Shown one piece after another: positions 21,596-41,356 of a DNA stretch of 64,000 nt (within the stretch, counting starts at the first letter, position 1; each line of letters opens with the position of its first letter). Both the position numbers and the translations under genes were made by a program. Below the pieces are notes generated by a model. That model worked only from the letters and a program-made list of their open reading frames with translations, made no database searches and had not been told where the DNA came from. Origin of the DNA: Sphingomonas sp. LHG3406-1 (GTDB taxonomy: Bacteria > Pseudomonadota > Alphaproteobacteria > Sphingomonadales > Sphingomonadaceae); NCBI RefSeq assembly GCF_029637485.1, contig NZ_CP069128.1, positions 930,001-994,000 of the forward strand, read 5' to 3'.

Positions 21596-21684
21596 GAAAA
21601 AGCCCCAGAAAACCGCTTGGTTTTCCGAGGCTTTGTAATGGTGGGCGTGGCAAGGATTGAACTTGCGACCCCTGCGATGTCAAC
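21596..21684. repeat. Left attachment repeat: duplicated 3' part of tRNA-Val plus terminator
   Basis: 21596-21633 is identical over 38 bases to 41240-41277 (the tRNA terminator hairpin). 21638-21684 is identical over 47 bases to 41281-41327 (the tRNA 3' part from CCA back through the T arm to the anticodon loop). The two identical blocks are separated by 4 bases here and 3 at the right end. Identity is lost beyond 21688. This is the classical scar of integration into a tRNA 3' end; the copy lacks the tRNA 5' half and cannot be a functional tRNA. Confidence 0.92.
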
Positions 21685-21736
21685 GCAGCGTGGAAAGCGG
21701 GAATGGCGGAAAACTGCGCTTCAGAATGCTGGTTCG

Positions 21737-21808
21737 CACCCGGATTTAGCCCATTTCACCCGCTTTGTGAGCTTTTTCACCCGGATTACACCCGGATCGC
21801 ACCCGGAT
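21737..21808. repeat. Left-end arm-type repeats (CACCCGGAT x4)
   Basis: Four exact copies of CACCCGGAT start at 21737, 21778, 21789 and 21800. The last three are spaced exactly 11 bp apart, about one helical turn. A degenerate copy (CACCCGCTT) starts at 21757. The same motif occurs in the matching position inside the right end. This arrangement resembles arm-type binding sites of tyrosine recombinases or excisionases. Confidence 0.7.
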
Positions 21809-21952
21809 GGATTTCCAGGTGCTCGGTCCTTCCGTCCTTTCACGCAAGACCACGTCTATCTGTTTGATCAAGCGCAGGTTTGCGCTTGCCAGGCTCGCCC
21901 CAAGCAGCTTCAAAGGGGTTGAGATCCCAAGCACGGTCAACCCGAGGTCGCA

Positions 21953-22250
21953 ATGTCAGCTTTGTTAAGGTGGGTTGCCAGCAAGTCACTGCTCTTCGTC
22001 CTGCTTTTCCTAGGAATCGCGGCTTTCACTTTCTTCGGACCTGCCATCCGGGCGGCGCTTACGCCAACACACCTACGCCAAGAGATTATGTCATTGGCGG
22101 ACGTAAGAATGCGCTTGGCAGAATCCCGCGCAGTAACTCAGAACAAGCTTGAGCAAACGGCCAGCACCTTCAAGGCGCAAGGTGTTGAGCAGCTTCAACT
22201 CCGGCTGACCGCAGCCCATCGGGAACTGCAGGGAGCAGAAGCGGAGCGCC
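21953..22250 (+). pseudogene. Truncated membrane-anchored coiled-coil protein, 5' part only
   Basis: ATG 21953 has a GAGG sequence six bases upstream. About the first 99 residues look genuine: one membrane helix (LLFVLLFLGIAAFTFFGPAI) followed by a charged, Gln/Glu-rich helical region (EIMSLADVRMRLAESRAV...). Near 22250 the frame runs into the antisense of a response regulator, and the open frame continues to 22396 as meaningless text. The 3' part has therefore been lost by recombination. No family is recognised. Confidence 0.55.
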
Positions 22251-22870
22251 GCCATCCTGTAGCCTTCACCCCGGACGGTTTCGATGCAGCCGCGTCCGAG
22301 TTTGGCCCGGAGGTTGTGGATGTGCACCTCGACCGCATTGCTCTCGACTTCTTCCTGCCAGCCGTAGAGCCGTTCCTCGAGTTGCGCCCTGGATGACAGT
22401 TTCTGAGGATGCTCCATCAGGGTCTCGAGGACCGTGAACTCGCGGCGGGAAAGGGTGAGGCTCTCCCCGGCCTTGGTCACCACGCGATTGGCAGGATCGA
22501 GGCTCAGGTCGGCCCATTCAAGCACGGGAGTTGCACGTCCTTGGCCGCGACGGACGATGGCGCGAAGCCGTGCCGCAAGTTCGTCCAGGTCGAACGGCTT
22601 GCCGAGGTAATCGTCGGCCCCGCTATCCAGGCCAGTGATCCTATCGAAGGTTGCGTTCCTGGCAGTGAGGAGCAGCACCGGCGTCGAACTTCCGGCCTTT
22701 CGCCACTCCTGCAAAAGGTCCAGCCCGAAGCCGTCTGGAAGGGCGAGATCGAGAACGATGGCGTCGTAGCTCCAGTCGGTCGCAGCCGCCTTCGCATCAT
22801 GCAAATTGTCGACGGCATCGACGGTGAATCCGGCGAGCGCGAGCCCGGCTTCAACCGCCTCACGCAACAT
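22091..22870 (-). pseudogene. OmpR-family response regulator, truncated at the 5' end and carrying a foreign 3' tail
   Basis: Residues 1-206 match an OmpR/PhoB response regulator: phospho-acceptor region YDAIVLDLALPDG (Asp41), Lys91 in LGKPFDLDE, and a winged-helix domain ending NLRAKLGRGCIETVRGEGYRM. The first beta strand and the acidic pair normally at residues 7-10 are missing, because the frame abuts a DsbD fragment on the other strand. After GYRM (about 22253), where the family ends, 50-odd unrelated residues follow, read antisense through the 21953 gene. No sensor kinase is nearby. Likely a non-functional relic. Confidence 0.7.
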
Positions 22871-22916
22871 GGCGACGGCTCTCGGAGCCGCAATGCTGCT
22901 GTCATCGATGGGCGCG

Positions 22917-23636
22917 ATGACGATTTTCCTTGGACTAGGGCTTGGCCTCGCCTTGCCGTTCCTGATCCTCGCCTATGTTCCCGCGAGCCGTCGCTGGCTG
23001 CCCAAGCCTGGACCGTGGATGTTGACCTTCCGCCGCATCCTGGCGCTTCCGATGCTCCTGACGACTGTCGGGTTGCTGTGGCTGTTGGGCCGACAAGGCG
23101 GAACGGCCGCGATGACGGCAGGAGCGCTTGCCGCACTGTCGATCGCGGTTGGTTTGTGGTGGGTCGGCCTGCGCCAACAAGCTGGCCGATCGCGGAGCTG
23201 GCTTCCCCTTGCGGCGTCCGCTTTGGCGATCGGCCTGCTCATTGTGACAGCTCCACCGCGAACGGTCGCCGCCGCGCCTGCGCCTGCGATCGGCGGGATC
23301 GAGCCCTTTACCGAGAAGCGCCTTGCGGAGCTTCGTAGCGCGGGCACTCCCGTTTTCGTCGACTTCACCGCCGACTGGTGCCTGACCTGCAAGGTCAACG
23401 AGAAGGTCGCCATTGAGCGGCCGGAGACGAGAGCCGCGTTCGGTAAGGCTGGCTTAGTGACGCTGCGAGGGGATTGGACCAACGGGGATCCCACGATCAC
23501 CCGCTTCCTGGCCCGCCAGGGCCGCAACAGCATCCCCTTCTACCTCTTCGTGGCACCAGGGAAATCGCCCGAGATCATGCCGCAATTGCTGACATCTCGG
23601 ATGCTCATTGAGCGGGCCGTGGACGCCAAGACTTGA
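22917..23636 (+). pseudogene. DsbD-type thiol:disulfide interchange protein, C-terminal fragment
   Basis: About 239 residues matching the end of DsbD: last membrane helices (IFLGLGLGLALPFLILAYVP, then LPKPGPWMLTFRRILALPML) and a periplasmic thioredoxin domain with FTADWCLTCKVNEK (Cys155, Cys158, counted from 22917). The N-terminal domain and most of the membrane core are absent; upstream sequence is the antisense response regulator. The thioredoxin part is intact. DsbD normally carries electrons from cytoplasmic thioredoxin to the periplasm; this fragment probably cannot. Confidence 0.72.
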
Positions 23637-23671: not shown

Positions 23672-24019
23672 ATGGAGAGTCGCATGGATACGGAGCTTCT
23701 GGCTCAATTTGGCGCCCAGGCCGAAAAAGCTGTGGGTCTGCTTAAATCGATGGCCAACGAATGCCGGCTGCTGGTGCTCTGTCACCTCGCGGCGGAGGGC
23801 GAGCTGTCGGTCGGGCAATTGCAGGACCGCGTCGGCCTCGGCCAGTCGGCCCTGTCGCAGCACCTCGCCAAGCTGCGCGAGGAAGGCCTCGTCGCCACCC
23901 GCAAGGAGTCGCAGACGGTTTTCTACAGCGTCTGCGATCCCAAGGCGCAGCAGGTGCTCGCGCTTCTCCACGACCTTTTCTGCCCCGAGCTCGGGGCCTC
24001 CAATTCCAGCAGGAGCTAG
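23672..24019 (+). CDS. ArsR-family persulfide-responsive repressor (SqrR/BigR-like)
   Basis: 115-aa winged-helix regulator with the ArsR recognition helix (LGQSALSQHLAKLREEGLV). Two cysteines sit where SqrR and BigR carry their sensing pair: Cys37 (in CRLLVLCHL) and Cys104 (in HDLFCPEL). In those proteins reactive sulfur joins the two cysteines and releases DNA. Cys31 and Cys88 are additional. Genes for persulfide oxidation follow directly, which supports sulfide sensing over arsenic. ATG 23672 is used; ATG 23684 is an alternative. Likely autoregulated through the palindrome at 23644-23657. Confidence 0.82.
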   Translation: MESRMDTELLAQFGAQAEKAVGLLKSMANECRLLVLCHLAAEGELSVGQLQDRVGLGQSALSQHLAKLREEGLVATRKESQTVFYSVCDPKAQQVLALLHDLFCPELGASNSSRS

Positions 24020-24023
24020 TCTG

Positions 24024-24965
24024 ATGACCACCGCTTCAACCAACGATCGCCACATCGAGCACGCCGTCGCGCAGGTCGCCGACGTTATTCACGGGGAGCT
24101 TCGCGCACCGCAGGTGAAGGCGTTCTTTGACGAGCCGACCTTCACCGTCAGCTATGTCGTCAGCGATGCCGCCACCAAGCGGGCGGCGATCATCGACAGC
24201 GTCTGGAACTTCGATCATGCGTCGGGCCGCACCAGCTTCGACAGCGCCGACAAGATCGTCGCCTATGTCGAGGAAGAAGGCCTGACGGTCGACTGGATCC
24301 TCGAGACCCACGCCCATGCCGATCACCTGTCGGCGGCGCCCTACCTCCAGCAGAAGTTGGGTGGGAAGATGGCGATCGGGCGTGAAATCGTGACCGTGCA
24401 GGGCGTGTTCGGGAAGATCTTCAATGAGGGCACTGAGTTCGCTCGCGACGGCTCGCAATTCGACCGCCTGCTCGACGATGGCGACGTGCTCGACATTGGC
24501 GGCATTCCGCTAGTCGCGCTGCACGTACCCGGCCACACCCCGGCAGACATGGCCTATGTCGTCGGCGACGCGCTGTTCACCGGCGATACGATGTTCATGC
24601 CGGACTATGGCTCGGCCCGCGCCGACTTTCCGGGCGGCGACGCGCGGCAGCTGTATCGTTCGGTTCGCCGGCTGATGAAACTGCCGGACGAGACCCGCGT
24701 GTTCCTTTGCCACGACTACAAGGCGCCGAACCGCGACGAATATGTGTGGGAAACCACCATGCTCGCCGAGCGCACCGCCAACGTCCACATCCACGAGGGC
24801 GTGAGCGAGGACGACTTCGTCGCCATGCGCACCCAGCGCGATGCCACGCTGTCGATGCCCAAGCTGATCCTGCCGTCGCTGCAGGTGAACATGCGCGGCG
24901 GGCACCTGCCTGAGCCGGAGGATAATGGCGTGCGCTACCTCAAGCAGCCGATCGACCTGCTGTGA
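24024..24965 (+). CDS. Persulfide dioxygenase (sulfur dioxygenase, ETHE1/Blh-like metallo-beta-lactamase fold)
   Basis: 313-aa mononuclear iron enzyme that oxidises glutathione persulfide to sulfite. Metal-binding motif THAHADH (residues 95-101), further ligands in VPGHTPADMAYVVG and FTGDTMFMPD, and the family-typical GSARADFPGGDARQLYRS and FLCHDYKAPNRDEYVWETT. In BigR operons this domain is often fused to a DUF442 rhodanese-like domain; here that domain is a separate gene at 25849. Shine-Dalgarno AGGAG at 24011-24015. Confidence 0.88.
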   Translation: MTTASTNDRHIEHAVAQVADVIHGELRAPQVKAFFDEPTFTVSYVVSDAATKRAAIIDSVWNFDHASGRTSFDSADKIVAYVEEEGLTVDWILETHAHADHLSAAPYLQQKLGGKMAIGREIVTVQGVFGKIFNEGTEFARDGSQFDRLLDDGDVLDIGGIPLVALHVPGHTPADMAYVVGDALFTGDTMFMPDYGSARADFPGGDARQLYRSVRRLMKLPDETRVFLCHDYKAPNRDEYVWETTMLAERTANVHIHEGVSEDDFVAMRTQRDATLSMPKLILPSLQVNMRGGHLPEPEDNGVRYLKQPIDLL

Positions 24966-25399
24966 GCGCGCTATTCGCCAACGCACAGCCGCTCCACGGC
25001 CTCGTCGGCGGCGTGATGATCGGCCTTGCGGCAGCGCTGATGTTGCTAGGGGCCGGTCGGATCGCCGGTGTTTCAGGTATCACCGCGCGCGCCACCGGCC
25101 TTGCCGACAGCGGCATGTCGCGCAGCAGCGCGTGGATGTTCCTGATCGGCCTGCCGCTCGGAGCGCTGCTGGTCGCTGCGATCATCGGACAGGGCGAGGC
25201 CGAGTTCGCCTCGTGGCCCGTCCTCGTCGCCGCTGGCCTGCTGGTCGGTATCGGCACCCGGATGGGCAGCGGCTGCACCAGCGGACACGGCGTGTGCGGC
25301 GTCAGCCGTCTGTCGCAGCGCTCGATGATCGCCACTGCCACCTTCATGGCTGCGGGCATCGCCACGGTTGCCGTCATCAATCTCATCGGAGGCCTGTAA
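24962..25399 (+). CDS. YeeE/YedE-family membrane protein, first half
   Basis: 145-aa protein with about four membrane helices and the YeeE/YedE (TsuA/PmpA-like) signature [17 protein letters not shown]. The Cys residues in this motif are proposed to relay thiosulfate or other sulfur species through the membrane. GTG start overlaps the dioxygenase stop. Together with the next gene it forms the usual split pair found in BigR-type operons. The direction and identity of the sulfur substrate are not shown by the sequence. Confidence 0.83.
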
Positions 25400-25845
25400 T
25401 GAGTGTCGCACGACGCTTCCTTCCGCCGCTGTTGTCAGGCGCGCTGTTCGGCGGCGGTCTCAGCATCGGCGGGATGACCGATCCCGCGCGGGTACGAGGC
25501 TTCCTCGACCTGTTCGGCGCATGGGATCCGACACTCGCCTTCGTCATGGGTGGTGCGGTGATCGTCATGGCGATCGCCTGGCGATTGCAGGCGCGGATGG
25601 CGCGACCGCTGTTCGGTGAGCGCTTTGCGTTGCCGGACCGGACCGACCTCGATGGCAAGCTGGTCGCCGGCTCCGCTTTGTTCGGCATCGGTTGGGGCAT
25701 TGCCGGCCTGTGCCCCGGGCCTGCCGTCGCTTCACTCGCGCTGGCGCCCACGGCCGTTCTCCCGTTCGTAGCCGCCATGCTCGTCGGCATGGCCCTTCAC
25801 CGTTTCATCCCCGAGCGCCGCGCGCTCGCTGCTCAAGGAGCCTGA
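25399..25845 (+). CDS. YeeE/YedE-family membrane protein, second half (DUF6691-like)
   Basis: 148-aa membrane protein partnered with the preceding gene. It begins with a hydrophobic helix ([19 protein letters not shown]) and contains the paired motif [17 protein letters not shown] with a conserved Cys. Such pairs form one YedE-like sulfur transporter when combined. ATG overlaps the previous TAA by one base. Confidence 0.82.
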
Positions 25846-25848
25846 ACC

Positions 25849-26283
25849 ATGAAGCTCGCCGTCCTCACTCCCAACGTCACCGCACTGGCCCAGCCGTCGG
25901 CCGACGACATCGCCAACCTCGCTGAGCGCGGCTATCGTTCGATCATTGGTAACCGCCCTGACGGCGAAAGCGATGATCAGCCCGCATGGGCCGAGCTCGA
26001 AGCCACCGCGATCCAGCAGGGCCTTGAAGCCCGCCACATCCCGGTCGTCATGGGGCAGATCACCGACGAGCAGGTCGCCGAGTTCCGCGACGCCTTGGAA
26101 ACGCTCCCGAAGCCGATCGCCGTCTTCTGCCGCACCGGGACGCGTGCCGCCCTTCTGTGGGCTCTGGCCAACCAGGCCAATCTCACCGTCGATGAGCGGA
26201 TCGCGATTGCCGCCAAGGAAGGCTACGATCTCGAGCCCTTCCGCCAACGCCTTTCGCGGGAGACCGACGATGCTCAAGCATGA
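25849..26283 (+). CDS. DUF442/TIGR01244-family sulfurtransferase-phosphatase-like protein
   Basis: 144-aa protein with the cysteine loop FCRTGTRAA (Cys94), typical of the TIGR01244 family, and the N-terminal text ADDIANLAERGYRSIIGNRPDGE. In Blh proteins this domain is fused to the persulfide dioxygenase and acts as a rhodanese-like sulfurtransferase handling persulfides or thiosulfate. Here it is free-standing between the transporter pair and SQR. It overlaps the SQR start by 14 nt. Confidence 0.82.
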   Translation: MKLAVLTPNVTALAQPSADDIANLAERGYRSIIGNRPDGESDDQPAWAELEATAIQQGLEARHIPVVMGQITDEQVAEFRDALETLPKPIAVFCRTGTRAALLWALANQANLTVDERIAIAAKEGYDLEPFRQRLSRETDDAQA

Positions 26284-27493
26284 CATTGTCATCGTCGGCG
26301 CCGGTGCGGGGGGTCTCGCTGCGGGGGCGTCGCTGCTGCGCCGTGTACCGAAACTCGACATTGCGGTGATCGAACCACGCGACTTTCACGACTATCAGCC
26401 AGGCTACACGTTCATCGGCGCCGGCGTCTTCAAGCCGCAGGACGTGCGACGCCCAATGGCGAAGGTAATCCCACGGGGCATAACTTGGCTTAAAACCACA
26501 GTGAGGTCGTTTCAGCCGGAAGACAATGATCTGGGTCTCGAGAATGGTCAGCGGCTCGGTTATCGGCTTCTGATTGTCGCAACTGGGAATCGGCTCGACT
26601 TCGAAGCCATTGACGGGCTGACTGGCACGCTCGGGTGCAACGGCGTGACGTCTAATTATCGCTATGACTTGGCGCCCTACACGTGGGAGCTAGTCCGTAA
26701 GCTTCGCGGCGGGCAAGCGCTGTTCACCCAACCCCCGATGCCGATCAAATGCGCGGGTGCGCCGCAAAAGGCCATGTACCTGTCCGCTAGTCATTGGGAG
26801 CGCGAGCATGTGCTCGACAGCATCGACGTCGAGTTCCACACCGCTGCCCCGACCCTGTTTGGGGTCAAAGACTATGTTCCAGCACTCGAAGAAACGGTCG
26901 AACGCTACGGCATTGACGTCCGGTTCGGCAGCACATTGATTGCGGTCGACGGACCCGACGGGACTGCCACCTTCCGGGCAGACGGCGGCGAAGTAACCCG
27001 CGCTTTCGACATGATGCACGTCACTCCGCCGCAGAAGCCGGTCGAAGCAGTGGCAGACAGCTCGCTCGCCGATGCAGCTGGCTATGTCGATGTCGACCAG
27101 TTCACCTTGCAGCACAAGTTGTTCCCGAACGTATTTGCGCTTGGCGACATTGGTGGAATGCCGAATGCCAAAACGGCGGCAGCCGTTCGCAAACAGGCGC
27201 CGGTGGTTGCAGAAAACGCGTTGGCCGTACTTGCAGGCAAGCATTTGGGGGCGGCTTACGATGGCTACGGCAGCTGTCCGCTTACCGTTGAGAACGGCAA
27301 GATCCTGCTGGCCGAGTTCGGTTATGGCGGCAGGCTCCTGCCGAGCTTCCCGAAGTTCGTGATCGATGGGACGAAGCCGTCGCGGCTGGCCTGGCTCCTC
27401 AAGAAAGACCTTCTTCCCGCCATCTACTGGGATGCGATGCTGAAAGGCCGGGAGTGGATGGCCGCTCCCGCCGAGCTGAAGAAGGCTGGGTGA
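26270..27493 (+). CDS. sqr: Sulfide:quinone oxidoreductase, type II
   Basis: 407-aa membrane-peripheral flavoprotein that oxidises H2S to a persulfide and reduces quinone. FAD-binding VIVGAGAGGLAAGASL near the N-terminus; redox cysteines Cys161 (in KCAGAPQK) and Cys336 (in GYGSCPL) match the pair of mitochondrial-type SQR. LHVTPPQ-like text (MMHVTPPQKPVE) and NVFALGDIGGMPNAKTAAA bind the second dinucleotide part. From about 26470 to 27290 codon use is less GC-rich than in the neighbours, hinting at a mosaic gene. Confidence 0.9.
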   Translation: MLKHDIVIVGAGAGGLAAGASLLRRVPKLDIAVIEPRDFHDYQPGYTFIGAGVFKPQDVRRPMAKVIPRGITWLKTTVRSFQPEDNDLGLENGQRLGYRLLIVATGNRLDFEAIDGLTGTLGCNGVTSNYRYDLAPYTWELVRKLRGGQALFTQPPMPIKCAGAPQKAMYLSASHWEREHVLDSIDVEFHTAAPTLFGVKDYVPALEETVERYGIDVRFGSTLIAVDGPDGTATFRADGGEVTRAFDMMHVTPPQKPVEAVADSSLADAAGYVDVDQFTLQHKLFPNVFALGDIGGMPNAKTAAAVRKQAPVVAENALAVLAGKHLGAAYDGYGSCPLTVENGKILLAEFGYGGRLLPSFPKFVIDGTKPSRLAWLLKKDLLPAIYWDAMLKGREWMAAPAELKKAG

Positions 27494-28272
27494 TGCTCGA
27501 TACCGTCCAATACATCCTCGGCCTTCTGTCGGGCAGCCTCGTCGGCTTCACACTTGGGCTGGTCGGGGGCGGTGGATCGATCCTTGCCGTCCCGCTGATG
27601 GTGTACCTCGTAGGCGTCCAGAGCCCGCATGTCGCGATCGGCACCAGCGCTCTTGCGGTGGCCGCCAATGCCGCAATGGGGCTCGCCAATCACGCTCGCG
27701 CGGGCACGGTGAAGTGGCGGTGTGGCCTGATGTACGCGGGTGCTGGCGTCATTGGCGCTTTCTTCGGCTCGACCGCCGGCAAAGCGTTCGACGGGCAAAG
27801 GCTGCTCTTCCTCTTTGCCATTGTGATGATCGTCGTCGGCGTCCTGATGCTCCGCCGCCGCAAGCATGAGGGCGAGGCAGGCGCTCAGTGCGATCGCACA
27901 AATGCCGGCAAGGTGCTCGGGGCCGGCCTTGGCACCGGAGGCTTCTCGGGCTTTTTCGGGATCGGTGGCGGATTTCTCATTGTGCCCGGCCTGATCGCAT
28001 CGACCGGCATGCCGATGATCAATGCGGTCGGGACCAGCCTTGTTGCGGTGACCGCCTTTGGCCTCACGACCGCCGCCAACTACGCCTTCTCTGGTCTTGT
28101 CGACTGGGTCCTCGCTGGTGTGTTCATCGCCGGCGGTGTCATCGGTAGCTTCGCTGGCACGCGCGCCGCCAAGCGTCTGTCGAGCTCGGGCCAGTTGACC
28201 AGCATCTTCGCTGTGCTGATCTTCGTGGTGGCGGCCTACATGCTCTGGAAGAGCGCGGGCGCGGCGTTCTGA
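27493..28272 (+). CDS. TauE/SafE-family sulfite/anion exporter
   Basis: 259-aa polytopic membrane protein with two TauE/SafE repeats: GFTLGLVGGGGSILAVPLMVYL and GFFGIGGGFLIVPGLIASTGMP. These exporters remove sulfite or related anions, the product of the upstream dioxygenase. ATG 27493 overlaps the SQR stop; GTG 27490 directly before it is also possible. A Cys in the central cytoplasmic loop (GAQCDRTNAG) is not known to be functional. Confidence 0.86.
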   Translation: MLDTVQYILGLLSGSLVGFTLGLVGGGGSILAVPLMVYLVGVQSPHVAIGTSALAVAANAAMGLANHARAGTVKWRCGLMYAGAGVIGAFFGSTAGKAFDGQRLLFLFAIVMIVVGVLMLRRRKHEGEAGAQCDRTNAGKVLGAGLGTGGFSGFFGIGGGFLIVPGLIASTGMPMINAVGTSLVAVTAFGLTTAANYAFSGLVDWVLAGVFIAGGVIGSFAGTRAAKRLSSSGQLTSIFAVLIFVVAAYMLWKSAGAAF

Positions 28273-28281
28273 GGAAGATTG

Positions 28282-29088
28282 ATGCCGTCGTCCTTCCAGA
28301 TCGGGCCGTTGATGCTTGCTGCCGACCGGGCGCTGGCCGTTGTTTTAATCGCTGCCTTCATCGTCCTTGCAAGCTTGATCGCCAGGAAGCTGGACCAGCG
28401 GGCTGAACGCTCCAGCTTCTGGGCACTTGTCGCGGGCATCGTGGCGGCGCGTGCCGGGTTCGTGGCGAACAATTGGGACGCGTTCGCTCTGGAGCCAACG
28501 TCGATTCTCGCGCTTTGGCAGGGCGGCTTTTCCTTGATCGCAGGAATAACCGGGGCTCTCGCAGCCATCGTCCTCACCATGCCTCGAAAGCAACCCGCAG
28601 CGGCGCTCGCCCGCTTGGTCGTAATGCTCGGTGGCGCATACTTCATCGGTGCAAGCCAGCTACGGCCTGCTGCGCTACCGCTTCCGGGTCAGATCGCCCT
28701 TGAGGGATGGTCGGGCGAGTCAGTCACCTTAGCCGACTTTCGCGGCCGGCCATTCGTTATCAACCTTTGGGCGAGCTGGTGTCTGCCCTGCCGGCGGGAG
28801 ATGCCGATGCTAATGGACGCGGCCTCACGATCGCCGATCCCTATCCTTCTGGTCAACAGCGGCGAGCAGCGCGCAGCCGCCGCAAAGTTTCTCCAAGCCA
28901 ATCGACTTCCCGAAAAGTCGGTCTACCTCGATCCCGCCGCAGCCCTTGCTGCCTCACTCGGGACGGGCGGTTATCCAACAACCCTCTTCATCAATGCAGC
29001 TGGTGAGATCGAAACCGCTCACCTCGGTGAGATTTCCCGAGCCATGCTCGCAAGCGAAATGCGGGCCTTGGAGAAAGGTCGCCGCTGA
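28282..29088 (+). CDS. TlpA-like thioredoxin with membrane N-terminal domain
   Basis: 268-aa protein. The N-terminal 130 residues are a membrane domain resembling part of prolipoprotein diacylglyceryl transferase (FQIGPLMLAADRALAVV..., about four helices). The C-terminal half is a periplasmic TlpA-type thioredoxin with WASWCLPCRREMPML and cis-Pro in GGYPTTLFI. Such fusions occur beside sulfur-oxidation and Dsb genes and probably reduce periplasmic disulfides or persulfides. Shine-Dalgarno GAGGAAG at 28271-28277 supports the ATG at 28282. Confidence 0.8.
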   Translation: MPSSFQIGPLMLAADRALAVVLIAAFIVLASLIARKLDQRAERSSFWALVAGIVAARAGFVANNWDAFALEPTSILALWQGGFSLIAGITGALAAIVLTMPRKQPAAALARLVVMLGGAYFIGASQLRPAALPLPGQIALEGWSGESVTLADFRGRPFVINLWASWCLPCRREMPMLMDAASRSPIPILLVNSGEQRAAAAKFLQANRLPEKSVYLDPAAALAASLGTGGYPTTLFINAAGEIETAHLGEISRAMLASEMRALEKGRR

Positions 29089-29114
29089 ATGGTTCTGACC
29101 CGCGAGGTAACGTC

Positions 29115-31690: not shown

Positions 31691-31706
31691 CAGTGGGCGG
31701 CTGATC

Positions 31707-32135: not shown

Positions 32136-32145
32136 GAGATTTCGC

Positions 32146-32176: not shown

Positions 32177-32202
32177 GCAGCGAATCGAATTGGAGACGAG
32201 TT

Positions 32203-33456: not shown

Positions 33457-34326
33457 TTATCTTCGTTCTAATCTGTCAGCTTTCTCGCCAAGGTCTTGCA
33501 CCGGTTTACGGATATCTTGGATGTCCCGTTCTACCCCATCGGCTTGTTCGTCGAGTCGGCGGACCGAACTGCGCTGCTGCTGGACTGCTTGTCCTACTTG
33601 ATCGGCCTGATTGCCGGCGTTGCGGATCGAACGCCTGACATTTGCGATGTCGTCACGGCTCGAGACCACGTCGCGCTCAAGCTTTTCGGCGCTGCGAGCA
33701 AAGCTGTTGATACCCTCGCTTGCTCCGCGCACCTGCTCAGGGCGCACGCTACCCAACAGCCGCTCTACACTCTGCTGCCATTCTGCTGTCGAACGCCGGG
33801 TCTGGTCCAGCTTCCTTGCCGCGTCAGCCTGGCCCGTCTGATCAAGCGCCCGAACCGCACGGTCGAGCGTCTGCGACACCTGCACTGCTTTCGCGGCAGG
33901 ATCGGTGGCGGTCCCGCCCTGAACGGCGGCAATCGTGCCGACGATGTCCTCATCAGGCGGGTTGATCAACGGTCCGTCGGTTGATGGCAGGAGCACCAGG
34001 ACTGCGGAGCCATCGAGCAGTGACCGGCTGATGTCCGCTCGAAAGCCGGCGTGCACCGGCAGATCAGTGTCGAGCGCTACTTCGACGGTGGGCCCGCCAA
34101 CTTCGCCGGCCGACAGATAGATCTTATCTACCCGGCCGACCCGAACCCCGGACATGGTCACCGGCCCTCCGACTGCCAAGCCCGAAACACTTTGGTTGAA
34201 GGAGATCCTGTACTTCGCACCATAGGTGCTTGTCCCGGCACCGATGTACCAGGCGAAGAAAACCAGTCCGACAACCAACAGCCCGCAAACGATGACGACG
34301 AGCAAACGGTTGGACCGTGTTTCCAT
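33457..34326 (-). CDS. MCE-domain (MlaD-like) protein with long coiled coil
   Basis: 289-aa protein with one N-terminal membrane helix (LLVVIVCGLLVVGLVFFAWYIG), an MCE/MlaD domain (about residues 35-115: YRISFNQSVSGLAVGGPVTMSGVRVG...) and a long helical tail (about 145-289; heptad-like Q/R/D-rich text). MCE proteins form hexameric rings that carry lipids between membranes, normally with an Mla ABC transporter. Here there is none; the gene is the last in an efflux operon and its ATG overlaps the outer-membrane factor stop (ATGA). Confidence 0.82.
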   Translation of the reverse strand: METRSNRLLVVIVCGLLVVGLVFFAWYIGAGTSTYGAKYRISFNQSVSGLAVGGPVTMSGVRVGRVDKIYLSAGEVGGPTVEVALDTDLPVHAGFRADISRSLLDGSAVLVLLPSTDGPLINPPDEDIVGTIAAVQGGTATDPAAKAVQVSQTLDRAVRALDQTGQADAARKLDQTRRSTAEWQQSVERLLGSVRPEQVRGASEGINSFARSAEKLERDVVSSRDDIANVRRSIRNAGNQADQVGQAVQQQRSSVRRLDEQADGVERDIQDIRKPVQDLGEKADRLERR

Positions 34327-35807
34327 CAGTTGCCAAGTCTCGCGGGCACCACCGGAGGTGCCCAGCCTAGTCCAAGCGACTTCTGCACGGCGATGTAACT
34401 GCCGGTGAGCGCCGCTGTGGCGCCTCGCAGGTTCTGCTCAGCAAGGCTCAACTGGCGCTCTGCTTCCAGTAGTTCGGCACGGGCCGTGGTTCCGGCCTTG
34501 AACCGCTGCCGGGTCAGCCTGGCCTGGCGCTCCGCGGAAGCTCGGACGTTCGCGAGCGCTTTCACCTGGCGTCGCTGCTGTCCGAAGCGGGCAAGGGAGT
34601 TTTCCGCATCCTGAAGGGCACCGAGCACTGCCTGCCGGTAGCGCGCCTCGGCTTCCTCGAGACCGCTCCTTGCCTGCCTCACACGAGACGCATTGCGACC
34701 GAAATCGAGAAATTGCCACTGTATCTGCGGAATGGCGATGGCGCTGATGTTGCCGAGATCGAACAAGTCACCCGGCTTGGTGCCACCAAGCCCAAGGATC
34801 CCCATGAAGCTGATCCGGGGGAAGCGCAGGGCTTCGGCGACCCCGATCCGCGCTGTCGCTGCGGCAAGGTTGCGCTCGGCGGCGCGCACGTCTGGGCGAC
34901 GCTGAAGCAATTCGGCAGGATTTCCGACCGACACGACCGCCGGCGGAAGCGGCACTTCGGCCGGAGCAGCCAATAGCCCGTCGACACTGCCGGGGGCGCT
35001 GCCGGTCAGGGTCGCCAAGGCGTTGAGATACACGTCCCTTTCGGCTTCGGCGGCTGCGACTTCGGCCTCAGTGCTCCGGAGGGCGACCTGCGCACGCTCG
35101 ACCTCGTAGGCAGCGGTGGTCCCACGCTGGAAGCGTTGCCGGGCGGTCGCAACGGCTTGCTCTTGAAGCGCCCGAGCGCGGCCCAGAGTGTCGATCCGGT
35201 TCTGCCGTTCGCGCAGATTGACATAGGCCTGACCAACCTCCGCTGTCAGCTGCACCTGAGCGTCGATCGCGTTTGCCTCGGCCGCCCCGAGCTGGGCGTT
35301 TAGGCTCTCGATCTGGCGGCGCGAGGCGCCGGCGAACTCCAGCTCCCAGTTGGCGTTCAGGCCAAGATTGAAGAAGTTGAGGGACGAGATGTCGTCTGAT
35401 CCGCCCTCCGCTGGCGGAGCGCCGGCAGAGCTGCCGTTGTTGTCCGTGCCAAGGTCGACGCCCGGCAACTCGGCGCGCACGTAGGTGCCCTGCGCCGCGA
35501 CGGTAGGATAGCGGTTCGCCTGTTCCTGACGCACCGACTCGCGAGCTTGGCCAATCCGCGCCCGCGCGATTTCGAGCGACGGATTGCTGCTGAGCGCCCG
35601 CGTCTGCAACTCGGTAAGGACTGGGTCGCCGAGCTGCGTCCACCACGAAGACAGTCTGGGCGACTCTGGGGTGACCAAGCCCGCTCCCCGGACGAAGTTT
35701 GCGGAAGGTGTTGCCGCACCAAGAGTTCCCGGACCCTTGTAGTCAGGTCCCGAGGTGCAGCCGGCGAGCAGAAGGGCGGCAGTAAGGGCAATCAGCGGGA
35801 AGCGCAT
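34326..35807 (-). CDS. Efflux outer-membrane factor (NodT/OprM family lipoprotein)
   Basis: 493-aa TolC-like channel. Lipoprotein signal with lipobox LAGC (Cys17), then two OEP repeats rich in coiled-coil text (NPSLEIARARIGQARESVRQ; QRRPDVRAAERNLAAATARIG). The conserved WWTQLGDPVLTELQ and SYIAVQKSLGLGW ends are typical of NodT-type factors. Start ATG 35807 is supported by AAGGA upstream; the longer frame overlaps the pump gene. Provides the outer-membrane exit for the EmrAB-type pump encoded upstream. Confidence 0.9.
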   Translation of the reverse strand: MRFPLIALTAALLLAGCTSGPDYKGPGTLGAATPSANFVRGAGLVTPESPRLSSWWTQLGDPVLTELQTRALSSNPSLEIARARIGQARESVRQEQANRYPTVAAQGTYVRAELPGVDLGTDNNGSSAGAPPAEGGSDDISSLNFFNLGLNANWELEFAGASRRQIESLNAQLGAAEANAIDAQVQLTAEVGQAYVNLRERQNRIDTLGRARALQEQAVATARQRFQRGTTAAYEVERAQVALRSTEAEVAAAEAERDVYLNALATLTGSAPGSVDGLLAAPAEVPLPPAVVSVGNPAELLQRRPDVRAAERNLAAATARIGVAEALRFPRISFMGILGLGGTKPGDLFDLGNISAIAIPQIQWQFLDFGRNASRVRQARSGLEEAEARYRQAVLGALQDAENSLARFGQQRRQVKALANVRASAERQARLTRQRFKAGTTARAELLEAERQLSLAEQNLRGATAALTGSYIAVQKSLGLGWAPPVVPARLGN

Positions 35808-35823
35808 CTCGATCCTTTGGGCA

Positions 35824-37386
35824 TCAATGCATTGACAGCGACATTCCCTTGGGAAGGGGTCGCAGGAACAGGACAAGGGGAACCGACAGCGTGGTAATGA
35901 TGGTCATGCCGAAGAAGATGTCGTTGTAGGACATGACAAAGGCCTCGCGCTGAATGGTACCGGCAAGAGTCCGAAAGGCGGCCTCGAGACTGCCGAGCGA
36001 CTGCTGGAGCCCGCCGAGGTAGGACTGGACGTCCCAACCGTTGGCATTCAGCGACTCCTCCATCCGCCGGCTGTGCAGCCAGCTGCGCTGGTCCTGCACG
36101 GTCGCCAGCCCTGCAAGCGCGAAAGACCCTCCCAGATTGCGCGCGGCGTTGAAGATTCCGGAAGCATCACCGGCATCTTCCTTGGTGACCGATGCTACGG
36201 TCGCCTGGTTCAGGAACAGCATGCAGAAGACGATGCCCACGCCCCGCATCAGCTGGCCCGGGATGAAGTGAGAGCCGGCGGTCTCGGCCGTCAGGCCGGC
36301 GCTGATCCAGCCGCTCCATGCAATGATGGCCAGGCCGCCACCCACTGCAATGCGGATGTCGAGCCTGGGAATAAGGAAGGGCACGATCGGCATCAGCAGA
36401 AGCGCTGGAAGCCCCATGTAGAAGATGATCCACCCGGTCTGAAGCGCATTGTAGTCGGCAATGATCGCGAGAAACTGCGGAATGACATAAGTCGTGCCGT
36501 ACAGCACCATGCCGAGCACGAGACCCATCACCACCACGCTGCCGAACTGCCGGTTGAAGATAAGGCTGAGCTTCAGCACCGGCTTGCGGGCAGTCAGTTG
36601 GCCCCAGGCCAGCATGGCGAAGCCAAGCAGGGTCATGATAGTCAACTGAACGATCAGGGTGGATTCGAACCACTCCTCGCGATGTCCTTCTTCTAGCACG
36701 ACGGTCAGGCCGCCCAAACCCAGGATCATCCCGGCAATGCCGAACCAGTCGGCGAAGCGCAGATAATCCCAGTCAGGCTTTTGGTGCGGCAGGCCGAGCA
36801 GCAGCAGCAGCACCAGCACGGCACAAACCGGCACGTTGACGAAGAATGCATAATGCCAGCTGAGGTTCTCGGTCAGCCAGCCGCCCAACAGCGGGCCCAC
36901 CACCGGACCCAGGATGACGGTGACTCCGAACAAGGCCATGCCGATTGGCTGCTGCCGGGCAGGCAGACGGGTGGCGACGATAGTCATGGCGGTTGGGATC
37001 AGCGCGCCACCCATCAGTCCCTGGCCGGCCCGGCCAATGATCATGGTGGTGAGGTCAGTGGCAATTCCGCACAGCATCGAAAAGGCGGTGAACATCACGA
37101 CGGCGATCAGCAGCAGCGTGCGCAAGCCTAGCAATCGCTCCAGCCAGGCGCTCAGCGGGATGATGATGATCTCCGCGACCAGGAATGACGTCGCGATCCA
37201 GGTGCCCTCCGAGCCGGACGCCCCGATCTCGCCCTGAATGGTGGGCAGCGCGGAATTGACAATCGACACGTCGAGGGTGGCGAGCAGCGCGCCGAGGCTG
37301 CCTGCCGCAACGGCGAGCCAGGCAGATAGGTCGGCCCGTTCCTCTCCCCGTCGGGCAGGAATGGAGGAGGCGGCGGCGGTCGCCAT
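35824..37386 (-). CDS. emrB: DHA2-family MFS multidrug efflux pump (EmrB-like)
   Basis: 520-aa inner-membrane proton antiporter with about 14 helices. DHA2 signatures: LDVSIVNSALPTIQGEIG in helix 1, WIATSFLVAEIIIIPLSAWL, RAGQGLMGGALIPTAMTIV (motif similar to A/B), and GPVVGPLLGGWLTENLSWHY (motif C). Drugs such as hydrophobic uncouplers are usual substrates of EmrB, but the substrate here is not known. It lies 5 bp after the adaptor gene and 16 bp before the outer-membrane factor. Confidence 0.9.
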   Translation of the reverse strand: MATAAASSIPARRGEERADLSAWLAVAAGSLGALLATLDVSIVNSALPTIQGEIGASGSEGTWIATSFLVAEIIIIPLSAWLERLLGLRTLLLIAVVMFTAFSMLCGIATDLTTMIIGRAGQGLMGGALIPTAMTIVATRLPARQQPIGMALFGVTVILGPVVGPLLGGWLTENLSWHYAFFVNVPVCAVLVLLLLLGLPHQKPDWDYLRFADWFGIAGMILGLGGLTVVLEEGHREEWFESTLIVQLTIMTLLGFAMLAWGQLTARKPVLKLSLIFNRQFGSVVVMGLVLGMVLYGTTYVIPQFLAIIADYNALQTGWIIFYMGLPALLLMPIVPFLIPRLDIRIAVGGGLAIIAWSGWISAGLTAETAGSHFIPGQLMRGVGIVFCMLFLNQATVASVTKEDAGDASGIFNAARNLGGSFALAGLATVQDQRSWLHSRRMEESLNANGWDVQSYLGGLQQSLGSLEAAFRTLAGTIQREAFVMSYNDIFFGMTIITTLSVPLVLFLRPLPKGMSLSMH

Positions 37387-37391
37387 CGGGT

Positions 37392-38540
37392 TTAGCGACG
37401 CCCTTCCTGCGCCTGACGCACGCGTTCCAGCTCGCCCTTCGCGCCGCGCGTATCCACCGTCACGTGGACCGACATGCCCGGTATCAGCAGCCGGCGGACT
37501 TCCGGCCCGGCTTGGATCGCGATCCGCACCGGAATTCGCTGCACGATCTTGGTGAAGTTGCCGGTCGCATTCTGCGGCGGAAGCACGGAGAATTGCGCGC
37601 CTGTCCCGGGCGCGAAGCTGGCAACCCGGCCGGTCAGCTCTAGGCCCGGAAGGGCGTCCACTTCAACGCGGACCGGCTGGCCCGCCCGCATTAGCCCGAC
37701 CTGCGTTTCCTTGAAGTTCGCCTCAATGTAGAGCTGCTGCGTCGGAACGATGGTCATCAGCCGCGTTCCAGGCTGCACGAATTGACCGACGCGGACCGCC
37801 AGATCTCCGACTCGGCCCGCGATGCTTGAGCGCAAGACTGTCGATTCCAGGGTCACGTTGGCCGCTTCGAGCTGAGCCTCAGCGGCGCGGCCCTGCGAGC
37901 GGGCTTGCTCGACTTGGGTGCGCAGGGTGCCGAAACGGCGCTGCGCCGCCAGCAGGTCGGCCTGTCGTGTCGCCAGCTGTGCACGAGCCTGCTGCTGCTG
38001 CTGAACCAGCTGGTCCAATCGCTCGCGCGGCTCCGCGCCGGAGGCCGCCAGCGGGCGGTAGCGCGCGACTTCACGATTGGCGAAAGCGAGGTCAGCCTGC
38101 GCTGCCGCCAACTGGGCCTGCGCCCGCTCCGCCGATGCCTGTTGTTCGGCAATCTGCGCCTGGACGGTGTTCGCGCTCGCCCGTGCCGCCTCGATCTGAG
38201 CCTGCAACTGCGAGGTCTGGGCACGGTAATCACGATTGTCGAGCAGAGCGAGCTGCTGGCCCCGACGGACTTCCGCATTCTCCTGGACAAACACCCGCTC
38301 GACGTAACCGCCGACCCGGGGCGCAACGATCACGCTGTCGGCCTGAACAAAGGCGTCGTTCGTGCTCTGTTGGTATTTGCCGTAGCTTTCGTTCCGCAGA
38401 TACCACCACAGGACGCCGCCCGCCACGATGACAGCCAAAATCAGCAGGCCGAGACGCACCTTGGGATTCGACAAGGGCGAGCTGCGCTTCTCCTCCCCAG
38501 TGTCGGCCGCAACGTCACCCGACTGGGTCACCATGTCCAT
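37392..38540 (-). CDS. emrA: HlyD/EmrA-family membrane-fusion adaptor
   Basis: 382-aa periplasmic adaptor anchored by one helix (about residues 29-48, LGLLILAVIVAGGVLWWYL). It has split biotinyl-lipoyl halves (VIVAPRVGGYVERVFVQENA and SSIAGRVGDLAVRVGQFV), a long coiled-coil hairpin between them (residues 95-205) and a C-terminal beta-barrel. First gene of the leftward efflux operon, divergent from marR with 77 bp between. Confidence 0.9.
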   Translation of the reverse strand: MDMVTQSGDVAADTGEEKRSSPLSNPKVRLGLLILAVIVAGGVLWWYLRNESYGKYQQSTNDAFVQADSVIVAPRVGGYVERVFVQENAEVRRGQQLALLDNRDYRAQTSQLQAQIEAARASANTVQAQIAEQQASAERAQAQLAAAQADLAFANREVARYRPLAASGAEPRERLDQLVQQQQQARAQLATRQADLLAAQRRFGTLRTQVEQARSQGRAAEAQLEAANVTLESTVLRSSIAGRVGDLAVRVGQFVQPGTRLMTIVPTQQLYIEANFKETQVGLMRAGQPVRVEVDALPGLELTGRVASFAPGTGAQFSVLPPQNATGNFTKIVQRIPVRIAIQAGPEVRRLLIPGMSVHVTVDTRGAKGELERVRQAQEGRR

Positions 38541-38617: not shown

Positions 38618-39106
38618 ATGGCACCTCAGCATCGCCCCATTATCGAAATCTCGAAGCAGCTCGCCTGGACCTACCTGCGGCTGCAGCGGATGCTGGATCG
38701 CTGTCTCGCCGGATCGGAGGCGTCGGTCGCGCGGGTGCGGCTGCTCGCCTACGTTGCCGACGGACCCAAGCGTTCCACCGACATTGCATCCTTCTTCGGT
38801 CATGCGCCGCGCACCGTCACCGAGGCGATAGATGCGCTCGAAGCGGCAGGACATTTAAGACGCCGAGTTATTCCCGAAGACCGCCGGGTCAAGCTGGTGG
38901 AATTGACCCCTGCCGGACGCGAGGTGCTCGACCGAGCCCAGCCGGAATATGAGCGCCTGCTCGCCGAAACCGTGGGAACGCTGGAACAGTCCGAACTGGC
39001 CGGACTGGATGCCGCCTTGTGCAAGCTGTCTCAGCGGATCGAAGCCGTGGAAGCCGAGCTCACACGCGCCAGCGATTGCGTAGGGTCGGGCAGGGAGCGA
39101 GAATGA
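38618..39106 (+). CDS. MarR-family transcriptional regulator
   Basis: 162-aa dimeric winged-helix repressor: KRSTDIASFFGHAPRTVTEA recognition region and the wing RRRVIPEDRRVKLVELTPAGREVLD. Divergent to the EmrAB-type operon, which it most likely represses until a hydrophobic ligand binds. There is no Shine-Dalgarno before the ATG, and the putative -10 box is only 8 bp upstream, consistent with leaderless translation. Its TGA overlaps the ATG of the kinase-like gene. Confidence 0.85.
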   Translation: MAPQHRPIIEISKQLAWTYLRLQRMLDRCLAGSEASVARVRLLAYVADGPKRSTDIASFFGHAPRTVTEAIDALEAAGHLRRRVIPEDRRVKLVELTPAGREVLDRAQPEYERLLAETVGTLEQSELAGLDAALCKLSQRIEAVEAELTRASDCVGSGRERE

Positions 39107-40719
39107 ACGAGCGAACTCCCTCCGAGACCAGTATCAGCCGGGCGATCGGCGAACGGGAGCGTTTCGGCCAGATCGTCGGGATCTTCGGACGGCACGGGCT
39201 GAGAGGCTTGGCATCCCGTCTCGGCTTGGGCGGTGCTCGCGACGAGGAGATGGAAACAGCCCGCCCTGAAGCGGTGGTCGCCGTGCTTCGCGACCTCGGT
39301 CCGGTGGCGGTGAAATTCGGCCAGATCCTGGCGATGCGCAGCGATCTTCTCGGTCCAGACTGGATCCGGGCGCTGTCCACCCTTCAGGACCGGGTCCTGG
39401 CCCTGCCTTTCGACCGCGTCCGGCCTGCGGTCGAGGAGGCGATCGGTGGGCCACTCGACAGCTATTTCGCAAGCTTCGACCACGAACCGATCGCGGCCGC
39501 CTCGATCGCCCAGGTCCACGCGGCCACCCTGCCGTCTGGAGAGCGCGTGATCGTCAAGGTCCGCCGGCCGGGGATTGAGCGAACGGTCGATGCCGACCTG
39601 CGGCTGCTCCGCCGCCTGGCGCGCACCGCCGAGAAGCGCGTTCCCGAAATCGCCCGGATGAAGCCGGACGAACTGCTGCGCTATTTCGCCGAAAGCCTCG
39701 ACCGGGAAATGGACCTGTCCGCCGAAGGCCGGGCAAGCGATTCGATCGGCGCCTTCCTCGCCGGCCTCGGAGTGCGGACGGCGCGGTTCGAGTGGGAGCT
39801 GACCGGGCGTCGGGTCAACGTCCAGGAACGGCTGGAGGCGATCCCCGCCACCGACCTTGCCACCGCGCGAGAGCGGGGAATCGACCTCACAAAAGTCGCC
39901 CGCACCTACGCCCAAGCCGTGCTTCGGATGATCATCTTCAACGGTCAGTTCCATGCCGACCCGCACCCCGGCAATGTGCTGATATTTCCGGACGGAAGCA
40001 TCGGGTTCATCGACTTCGGAGCGGTCGGCACCCTGCTTCCCCGCCGGCGGGAAGAACTGGTCCGGCTGGCCCTCGCCATCGCGGCCGACGATCCGGCCGG
40101 AGTGGTCGACGTGCTGATGGTCTGGGCCGGCGATCCGCCGGTCGACCGCATCCGGCTGGAATTCGAGCTGGCGGCGCTGATCGACGAATTTCGCAACGTG
40201 GTTCTGGAGCAGGTCGACCTCGCCCGCATCTTCAACCAGGTGTTCGGCCTGCTGAGGGGCTTCGAACTGGCGCTTCCGCCCGACCTTGCGCTTGTGCTTC
40301 GGACCCTGCTCACCGCCGAGGGCTTCGTCCGTCGTATCGACCCAGCCTTCGACATTGGTGGCGAGCTGGCGCCGATCGCCCGCCAATTGGTGAGCCAGCG
40401 CACCAGCCCCGCCCGGCTAGCCAGGGAGGGGCGCAAGCTGGCGGCCGCGCTCGGCCGGGCGGCGCTCAGCGCGCCCGAGCTTATCGGACAGGTGGAGAAG
40501 GTGGCCCGCACCGGCAGTCTGCCGGTCAGCCTCAATCCGCAAACGATCGAACAGCTTGGTCAGCGACGCTCCTCGCACGTGCGGTCCGATCCCCAACTGC
40601 TGCCCGCCGCCTTGATCGTCGCCGGAGCCATTCTGGCAGGAACCGAACCGCTGCTGGGCTTGGTAAGCGGTAGCCTGGCAGTCGGCCTGCTCGTCTTCGG
40701 GCGCGTGCGCAAGTCGTAA
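39103..40719 (+). CDS. ABC1/AarF/UbiB-family atypical kinase
   Basis: 538-aa protein-kinase-like protein. Family motifs: KxGQ (VAVKFGQILAMRSDLL), Ala-rich loop (AAASIAQVHAA), Lys in VIVKVRRPG, HADPHPGN catalytic loop and IDFGAVG. Two C-terminal membrane helices (LLPAALIVAGAILAG and LLGLVSGSLAVGLLVFG). UbiB relatives act in ubiquinone synthesis or lipid/quinone movement. Coupled to marR (ATGA) inside an efflux island, so it is probably not the housekeeping UbiB. AGGGAG Shine-Dalgarno. Confidence 0.87.
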   Translation: MNERTPSETSISRAIGERERFGQIVGIFGRHGLRGLASRLGLGGARDEEMETARPEAVVAVLRDLGPVAVKFGQILAMRSDLLGPDWIRALSTLQDRVLALPFDRVRPAVEEAIGGPLDSYFASFDHEPIAAASIAQVHAATLPSGERVIVKVRRPGIERTVDADLRLLRRLARTAEKRVPEIARMKPDELLRYFAESLDREMDLSAEGRASDSIGAFLAGLGVRTARFEWELTGRRVNVQERLEAIPATDLATARERGIDLTKVARTYAQAVLRMIIFNGQFHADPHPGNVLIFPDGSIGFIDFGAVGTLLPRRREELVRLALAIAADDPAGVVDVLMVWAGDPPVDRIRLEFELAALIDEFRNVVLEQVDLARIFNQVFGLLRGFELALPPDLALVLRTLLTAEGFVRRIDPAFDIGGELAPIARQLVSQRTSPARLAREGRKLAAALGRAALSAPELIGQVEKVARTGSLPVSLNPQTIEQLGQRRSSHVRSDPQLLPAALIVAGAILAGTEPLLGLVSGSLAVGLLVFGRVRKS

Positions 40720-41239
40720 GGACGCGCGGGCGCAGCGGGGCGTGCTCAACGTAGTTTCTGCCAGCACTCATTTCGAGCAACTCCGCATGTGCTATTTAGG
40801 CACGATGATTTTGCTAGGACCGCTCTCGCAATCGCCCGCAAGCCCAAGCACTGGCAGCGATAACGGTTTCGAGTCAGTGCAGGCTTATGGACTCCGTCTT
40901 CGCCAAGCGGCAGCAAGCGCAGTAAGCGTCCGCATGTGACTGCTAGCTCCTCATAAGCAGACGGTCTTCTGTCGGCCAGATGCGGGCGTTCGCCTTACCT
41001 GAACGACCGTCCTCTGTCCGGCAGCCTCGGTGCAGGGCTGAACGGCCGAGAGTGGGTCTTTCCTGCCGCCACGCACAAGGGCCAGCAATCCATCAATGTC
41101 CTCGAAGGAGGCACTGTCCGAGCCTGATCGCATGCATCAACGGCTTATCTAGGCTGCGCGTCCTCACGATGTTCGCGACCATCAAGGGCGTACACCCGGA
41201 TTTCACCCGGACATCCCCTCATCCCACCGTCCGGGTAAA
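40720..41239. other. Right-end gene-free region of the island
   Basis: About 520 bp between the kinase gene and the tRNA terminator. It holds degenerate palindrome-like intergenic repeats (for example 40957-40993 and around 41001-41058) and the right-end arm motifs at 41193-41236. Short open frames on both strands (for example 40951-41133 minus) have no clear coding character and I do not call them. No integrase lies here, although that is where one is usually found. Confidence 0.6.
41193..41236. repeat. Right-end arm-type repeats
   Basis: CACCCGGAT at 41193-41201 and CACCCGGAC at 41204-41212, again 11 bp apart, plus an inverted copy GTCCGGGT at 41229-41236. They mirror the cluster at 21737-21808 and lie immediately inside the tRNA-derived repeat. 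Confidence 0.65.
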
Positions 41240-41277
41240 GAAAAAGCCCCAGAAAACCGCTTGGTTTTCCGAGGCTT
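41240..41277 (-). terminator. Rho-independent terminator of tRNA-Val
   Basis: Read on the minus strand, a stem AAGCC(TC)GGAAAACC / GGTTTTCTGGGGCTT with loop AAGC is followed by a T run. It lies four bases after the tRNA 3' end. The same 38 bases are present at 21596-21633 as part of the left attachment repeat. Confidence 0.85.
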
Positions 41278-41281
41278 ATGA

Positions 41282-41356
41282 TGGTGGGCGTGGCAAGGAT
41301 TGAACTTGCGACCCCTGCGATGTCAACACAGTGCTCTACCACTGAGCTACACGCCC
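41282..41356 (-). tRNA. tRNA-Val (anticodon GAC)
   Basis: Complete cloverleaf on the minus strand: acceptor GGGCGTG/CACGCCC with encoded CCA, D arm GCTC/GAGC, anticodon stem CTGTG/CGCAG with loop TTGACAT (anticodon GAC at 41322-41324), T arm GCAAG-TTCAATC-CTTGC. 75 nt including CCA. It served as the integration target of the island; its 3' half is regenerated by the island's right attachment end. Confidence 0.95.

Follow-up and report, generated by a model that had tools for sequence, protein, structure and literature searches.

What accounts for a second, truncated copy of a tRNA gene end that lies some 19.6 kb from the gene itself with accessory genes packed in between, and could the DNA so enclosed still move? 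The window analysed here, a stretch of 64,000 nucleotides of Sphingomonas sp. LHG3406-1 (contig NZ_CP069128.1, positions 930,001 to 994,000; G000:C1:930001-994000 in our numbering, from a genome of 2.85 Mb on one contig), holds such an island at a tRNA-Val(GAC) gene. We read it as a derivative, like a cis-mobilizable element (CIME), of an integrative mobilizable element (IME), carrying stress-detoxification cargo between its left and right attachment (att) sites, attL and attR, and we place the probability of this reading at roughly 0.85. The evidence comes from the structure of the two ends, from a complete relative at the same locus and from the genes that the island has and lacks.

The duplicated attachment site

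Alignment of the two island ends recovered the duplicated tRNA end and terminator that the original prediction had described, as two identical blocks, one of 38 and one of 47 bases, at 21596-21684 and 41240-41327; a small indel separates the two blocks, and the similarity extends to 21689/41332 with one mismatch. The block of 47 bases is the longest exact repeat of the window, while the longest in 20 first-order Markov sequences of equal length measured 16-19. ARAGORN called one tRNA in the window, tRNA-Val(gac), and in a whole-genome BLAST search with this tRNA only its bases 26-75 were matched at the left copy (98%), which bears out the earlier claim that the 5' half is missing there. The features of the two ends are as follows.

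21596..21689, minus strand: left att copy, with terminator and tRNA 3' part, no tRNA 5' half, and C30 (alignment, BLAST)
41240..41332, minus strand: right att copy, with tRNA 3' part, anticodon loop and terminator (alignment; hairpin 41277-41244)
41282..41356, minus strand: intact tRNA-Val, anticodon GAC, whose 3' part belongs to the element-side att site (ARAGORN)

The directly repeated tRNA 3' end at the far border, the intact tRNA at the near one, a G+C content of 63.4% against 69.9% in the flanks and the accessory gene families in between are the marks of an island integrated into tRNA-Val(GAC), as had been proposed. A terminator-like hairpin was called at the right copy (41277-41244, minus strand); the same stem-loop sequence is present in the left copy, yet was passed over by the terminator scanner on that strand. 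The idea that the element brings its own terminator is likewise upheld, since the terminator lies inside the duplicated segment at the tRNA-proximal end, and a near-identical one stands at both ends of the related Sphingomonas swuensis element described below.

The borders had been regarded as fixed to the base, and on this point the reading needs correction: the exchange most likely took place within the 7-bp anticodon loop, ATGTCAA at 21677-21683 and 41320-41326, and the element measures 19,643 bp between these exchange points. Read along the tRNA strand, the sequence is CTGCG-TTGACAT-CGCAG in the left copy, where the intact tRNA has CTGTG-TTGACAT-CGCAG. The element-type C at tRNA position 30 gives the left copy a perfect 5-bp inverted repeat around the loop, and the same variant is found in S. 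swuensis (G462) and in genome G249. As a general rule, exchange occurs in a 7-bp loop between 5-bp inverted stems; the two copies are identical across the anticodon loop and the 3' half and begin to diverge in the 5' anticodon stem, which fits such an exchange.

Phased repeats inside both ends

Directly inside both att copies lie phased 11-bp repeats (CACCCGGATNN), arranged as listed here.

21737..21808, plus strand: four CACCCGGAT repeats, starting at 21737, 21778, 21789 and 21800, three with 11-bp phasing; probable arm sites for an integrase at the left end, with related repeats in G462, G439 and G249
41193..41239, plus strand: two phased CACCCGGA(T/C) repeats at 41193 and 41204 (one mismatch) and one inverted TCCGGGT at 41230; probable arm sites of the right end, the phased pair being kept in G462

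When the pattern CACCCGGATNNCACCCGGA was sought with up to 3 mismatches allowed, the window gave 3 sites, all exact and all at the island ends; 100 shuffles of the window contained 0.47 sites on average, and none of the 100 contained 3. At the base composition of the window about 3e-5 exact occurrences of the paired pattern are expected, and 3 were found. Across 397 family genomes the exact pair pattern occurs in two, namely G000, at both ends only, and G249, which belongs to another genus, and the reversed-pattern control in none. The repeats have the look of lambda-type integrase arm sites, and such an enzyme may bind them.

Related elements in other genomes

The congener S. swuensis carries an element (G462:C1:1852963-1944164; L112-L118, L128) at the same tRNA-Val/accA locus. 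Its tRNA-Val adjoins accA as in the window, and DNA pieces across 41000-59036 are 78-90% identical between the two. A distance of 91.2 kb separates its att copies, whose terminator and arms are of the type found in the window and whose core is fully conserved, and a left-end search of 71 genus genomes gave for this genome the same left end as in the window (88% over 202 nt). Within the element are a 468-residue tyrosine recombinase, whose PF00589 match is weak and below cut-off, a MobA/MobL relaxase, a UvrD-type helicase-nuclease and an SbcD-like protein, along with defence cargo composed of Zorya type I ZorA-D, SspA/C/D and a TOTE-type pair; it is best read as a putative IME with defence cargo. 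Of its 72 predicted genes, taken from a simple G+C-based caller, 1 of the 72 matches the window at E 1e-8, and this is a 546-residue AIM24-like gene.

Outside the left att copy, G462:1852880-1852962 keeps right-arm-like repeats, of which window positions 21540-21595 possibly hold a degenerate version. Arm-like repeats in this place suggest an earlier element or a tandem at tRNA-Val.

Homologues of the S. swuensis integrase occur in several sphingomonads. In one of them, P0021 (57% identical), the reading frame continues into tRNA-Val-like sequence, which ties this integrase family to the tRNA-Val target, and a distant homologue (29%) lies beside tRNA-Val in G424. Against viral contigs P0021 matched 2 loci, the match being confined to the C-terminal read-through part.

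The search of 71 genus genomes also gave a related left end (74%) in G439, where a 37.6-kb segment (G439:C1:532196-570000; L120-L122) with related arms stands at tRNA-Val in tandem behind a 1.4-kb one; a DNA-methyltransferase-like open reading frame (ORF) was noticed in this segment by eye. In G249 a 22-nt core that matches the left core of the window base for base, the element-specific one included, lies 95 bp from the pair pattern; the corresponding distance in the window is 94 bp. With the tRNA 3' half mostly gone (27/45 positions), this site of G249 is a remnant.

Probable loss of integrase and transfer genes

No integrase or relaxase was found in the island, where a PF00589 search up to E 1 had as its sole match a remnant of 25 positions (E 0.02); other tyrosine recombinases exist in G000, and all PF00589 matches save this remnant fall outside the island. 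When 120 family integrases were compared with the window (E 0.01), nothing in the element or its att sites was matched except by the tRNA read-through of P0021; the other 18 rows are matches to xerD, which lies in the right flank. A Pfam scan of 25 island ORFs gave no relaxase family, and the integrase and relaxase of its own that mark an IME were not seen, no search for an origin of transfer having been made; nor did these ORFs, by Pfam and with no search of PHROGs, include type IV secretion system conjugation genes or phage structural genes, as an integrative and conjugative element or a prophage would have. By sequence the island has what a CIME has: attL and attR are retained, no integrase or transfer genes were found, and the S. 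swuensis element is its complete relative.

The gene fragments of the island are these.

21953..22249, plus strand: AIM24-like 5' fragment, the first 99 of 546 codons, 82% amino acid identity; full length in the S. swuensis element
22250..22870, minus strand: response-regulator fragment (match to the Response_reg profile beginning only at position 10)
22868..23636, plus strand: 3' fragment of a DsbD-like thiol-disulfide interchange gene (thioredoxin-like domain above cut-off)
32967..33092, minus strand: remnant of a small tyrosine recombinase (its C-terminal 42 residues), which differs in kind from the S. swuensis integrase; contains the 25-position PF00589 match

The name AIM24 is taken from the annotation of relatives; Pfam gave no match for the query itself. 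A search of plasmids found nothing that matched the AIM24-like fragment. The response-regulator frame has no start and continues past 22250 into the AIM24-like segment, and in the DsbD-like fragment the transmembrane profile was matched only at 161-214 of 219, below its curated cut-off. With these truncated genes the left end is a patchwork, consistent with deletions of the genes for integration and transfer.

The recombinase remnant at 32967-33092 sits between the mercury-type and efflux clusters of the cargo; genes like it occur in G002 and G006, and in G004 about 3.6 kb from tRNA-Val. A recombinase of G000 at 2183929 has 33.5% identity over 157 residues to the S. swuensis integrase; because it lies 1.2 Mb away, it was set aside as a candidate for the cognate enzyme.

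Proposed history and rival explanations

In the proposed history, an integrative element would have inserted itself into tRNA-Val(GAC) through an exchange that a tyrosine recombinase carried out within the anticodon loop. Its attP would have carried the tRNA 3' part and the terminator, such that the tRNA was made whole again, followed by a terminator of its own, while the 3' part and terminator that had been there before came to lie at the far end. The ends would belong to a family of sphingomonad mobilizable elements, and the integrase and transfer genes would have been lost later; we infer that the integrase went by deletion and that the att sites may still be usable in trans or by accretion.

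The explanation that survives best beside this one, to which we give even chances, is compatible with it and disputes only the remaining function of the sites: the island would be a dead relic of an old integration in a common ancestor with S. swuensis, its int and mob genes lost and its att sites fossil. The ends have diverged from those of S. swuensis about as much as the neighbouring DNA, with 85/108 identical positions on the left and 179/224 on the right beside 78% identity over 41000-48658, and third-codon identity stands at 0.658 in accA and 0.685 in the AIM24-like fragment. This divergence fits insertion in the common ancestor, although later exchange is also possible, and the truncated genes at the left end speak for a relic as well. 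What speaks for sites still under use is the fully conserved core and the arms, identical between the two genomes at 39/39 positions versus 233/305 around them (Fisher p 6e-5, in a comparison chosen post hoc). The identity of the arms hints at retained function or at gene conversion between the two ends, and does not imply mobility.

More doubtful, and entertained only tentatively, is a reading of the island as a member, still live though without an integrase, of a family of sphingomonad elements at tRNA-Val(GAC). The shared docking ends, a terminator-bearing core with 11-bp phased arms, would serve as a chassis on which cargo is swapped while a related element supplies the integrase, and the cargo would alternate between anti-phage defence, as in S. 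swuensis, and metal, sulfide and efflux protection, as in the window.

It is quite improbable that the island is a complete element with a recombinase of unrecognised type inside it. Some of its small ORFs are without a Pfam match and the related-arm element of G439 likewise has no PF00589 match, but 25 island ORFs were scanned against Pfam, the large coding-looking ones fall into other families, and the integrase of the sister element is a tyrosine one from a common family. Least probable of all is that nothing was integrated and that unrelated accessory genes accumulated between copies of a tRNA end duplicated by homologous recombination or replication error. A direct repeat taken alone could arise in this way, and the broken left-flank synteny in relatives speaks for it; against it stand the inner arm repeats at both ends, the core variant specific to the element and the finding of the same ends in another species, where they enclose a mobilizable element.

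Empty site and points against the CIME-like reading

The original prediction, sound as to integration, content and terminator, had left the missing integrase and the arm repeats unnoticed; it had also expected an empty site in relatives, with the ABC (ATP-binding cassette) ATPase side joined to a single tRNA-Val and accA, and none was found in the relatives examined. The tRNA-Val loci of 12 relatives, some of them short at contig ends, were compared with the proteins of the window. Among them accA stands beside tRNA-Val only in G011, as it does also in S. swuensis. G011 has a single tRNA-Val with terminator and an accA side 80% identical to that of the window, and the searches made gave no second tRNA-Val 3' half there; on the far side of its tRNA-Val lie 17.6 kb with only short weak matches in G000. 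Its ABC pair is at 397 kb and its tRNA-Val at 2530 kb, and at E 1e-70 the ABC ATPase is present in 4 of 13 genomes (G000, G011, G006 and G002). The tRNA-accA side is common to G000, G011 and S. swuensis and the opposite side differs in each, so that the junction before insertion is unreadable from the latter two. The lack of a clean empty site follows from the rearrangement of the left flank among relatives, and no strain of the same species was found for this comparison. Window positions 498-12101 and 12408-18857 map to two further places in G011, and this dispersal of the left flank (window 1-21400) over separate places reflects heavy chromosomal rearrangement between congeners.

Several points weigh against our reading. 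G011 and S. swuensis each have a different left flank, without the ABC side at that place, and no clean empty site was found. The related-arm element of G439 is without a PF00589 match inside, for which reason the putative link between the arms and the S. swuensis integrase rests on one genome and the P0021 target. In G249 a sulfur cluster (L078 4501-8605) lies about 3 kb away on the side of the core opposite to that of the window island, and the G249 site is therefore no simple second copy of the window element. Control windows of the same length as the arms, placed outside them, were fully identical in 7/180 cases at the right end and in 0/70 at the left, and gene conversion between the ends could be the source of the arm identity. 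Excision and mobilization of the island, finally, are predicted from its sequence only.

Cargo genes

The gene assignments of the cargo were made with NCBIfam models beside the Pfam scan.

23672..24019, plus strand: ArsR-family regulator (profile match), which we take to be BigR-like by its position
24018..30014, plus strand: sulfide/persulfide-type cluster (Blh and sulfide:quinone reductase models below NCBIfam cut-offs)
30350..32843, unstranded: mercury-type cluster (MerA and MerR by NCBIfam and MerT by Pfam, scores below curated cut-offs)
33457..38540, minus strand: efflux cluster (NodT and EmrB subfamily models above cut-off, EmrA/EmrK model below)
38618..39106, plus strand: MarR-family regulator (profile match)
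39097..40719, plus strand: ABC1/UbiB-type atypical kinase (profile match)

The sulfide/persulfide-type cluster includes two metallo-beta-lactamase-fold proteins resembling the dioxygenase part of Blh (persulfide dioxygenase type), a YeeE/YedE pair, a BLH phosphatase-like protein, a sulfide:quinone reductase-like protein, a TauE/SafE exporter and a TlpA/DsbE-like thioredoxin. In the mercury-type cluster are a flavoprotein resembling MerA and glutathione reductase, a MerR-family regulator on the minus strand, a MerT-like protein and a small CxxC protein, and in the efflux cluster an MlaD/MCE-like protein, a NodT-type outer membrane channel, an EmrB-type permease of the DHA2 group of the major facilitator superfamily and an EmrA/HlyD-type adaptor. 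Judging by these gene families, the probable role of the cargo is protection from sulfide/persulfide, mercury-type and toxic-compound stress.

A megablast search of the island against plasmids gave matches in 36 records, none of which reached 80% coverage; coverage was at most 10% of the island in the best 30 of the 36, and no recent plasmid source was therefore found. The same type of persulfide/sulfur cluster stands directly beside tRNA-Val(GAC) in G006 (L033 4955-7537), and it is also the type found near the att remnant of G249.

tRNA-Val(GAC) as an insertion point in the genus

Among 20 fetched sites and 9 others inspected, 14 sites in 12 genus genomes have a complete (45/45) tRNA-Val 3' half without the 5' half, and 10 genes are intact. 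The 3'-half sites are those of G000, G462, G439 (twice), G009, G010, G411 (twice), G417, G422, G424, G425, G294 and G463; left out of the count are G165 (38/45), G249 (other genus, 27/45) and the sites of unreadable core in G003, G448 and G463, one in each. At least 12 of the 71 genus genomes carry an extra full tRNA-Val 3' half, a lower bound given that the candidates were hand-picked. By eye, the inner sequences of the half copies differ (L134-L153), those of G010, G294 and G463 being of one type and those of G411 and G425 having other repeated motifs. Because the inner repeats differ, several integrase specificities or element families probably use the one anticodon loop. In G420 (L134, L135) two complete tRNA-Val(GAC)-type genes lie about 12 kb apart.

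Searches of larger collections with the ends returned little. Neither the core with arms nor the triple-arm pattern had a match in viral contigs, and the tRNA end with terminator had none in the genome contig collection, from which records very near the window genome were possibly excluded. The only match of core plus arms in genome contigs, in a Candidatus Levyibacteriota metagenome-assembled genome (L081), has no tRNA core nearby and was judged to be chance.

Relation to known systems and significance

A CIME is defined in PMC5704250 as an element that has lost its integration and transfer genes and retained attL and attR. The island resembles one in its place in a tRNA 3' part, in keeping both att sites and in having a related complete element at the same site; it differs in the arm-type repeats, in the terminator within the duplicated segment and in its cargo, and mobilization and accretion are here predictions. 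With the S. swuensis element it has in common the tRNA/accA locus, the terminator-containing att core, the arm type and the AIM24-like gene, whereas the 91-kb length, integrase, MobA/L relaxase and Zorya I, Ssp and TOTE genes of that element have no counterpart found in the 19.6-kb island.

Among the ssrA islands of Dehalococcoides, 15 are without an integration module, and the authors suggest them as possible CIMEs (PMC3146451). As here, direct repeats of an RNA gene end form the bounds, and a conserved mismatch tells the element repeat from the gene; there the target is a transfer-messenger RNA and the enzyme a serine recombinase (PMC3146451). A sphingomonad IME is described in pPDL2 of Sphingobium fuliginis, where attP lies close to the int 3' end and attB is the 3' end of a tRNA (PMC3516476); it differs in its tRNA-Ser target, its plasmid form and the presence of an integrase (PMC3516476). 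No description of this tRNA-Val(GAC) system in sphingomonads was among the literature matches listed.

The island is ordinary in kind, CIMEs being already known, and unusually well bounded. Through its ends a tRNA-Val(GAC) attachment system of the genus is defined at the level of sequence, comprising core, exchange loop, arm repeats and terminator, and the same locus is known with a complete element as well as with an integrase-less one. The mobility of integrase-less islands becomes directly testable, and tRNA-Val(GAC) emerges as a repeated insertion point in the genus.

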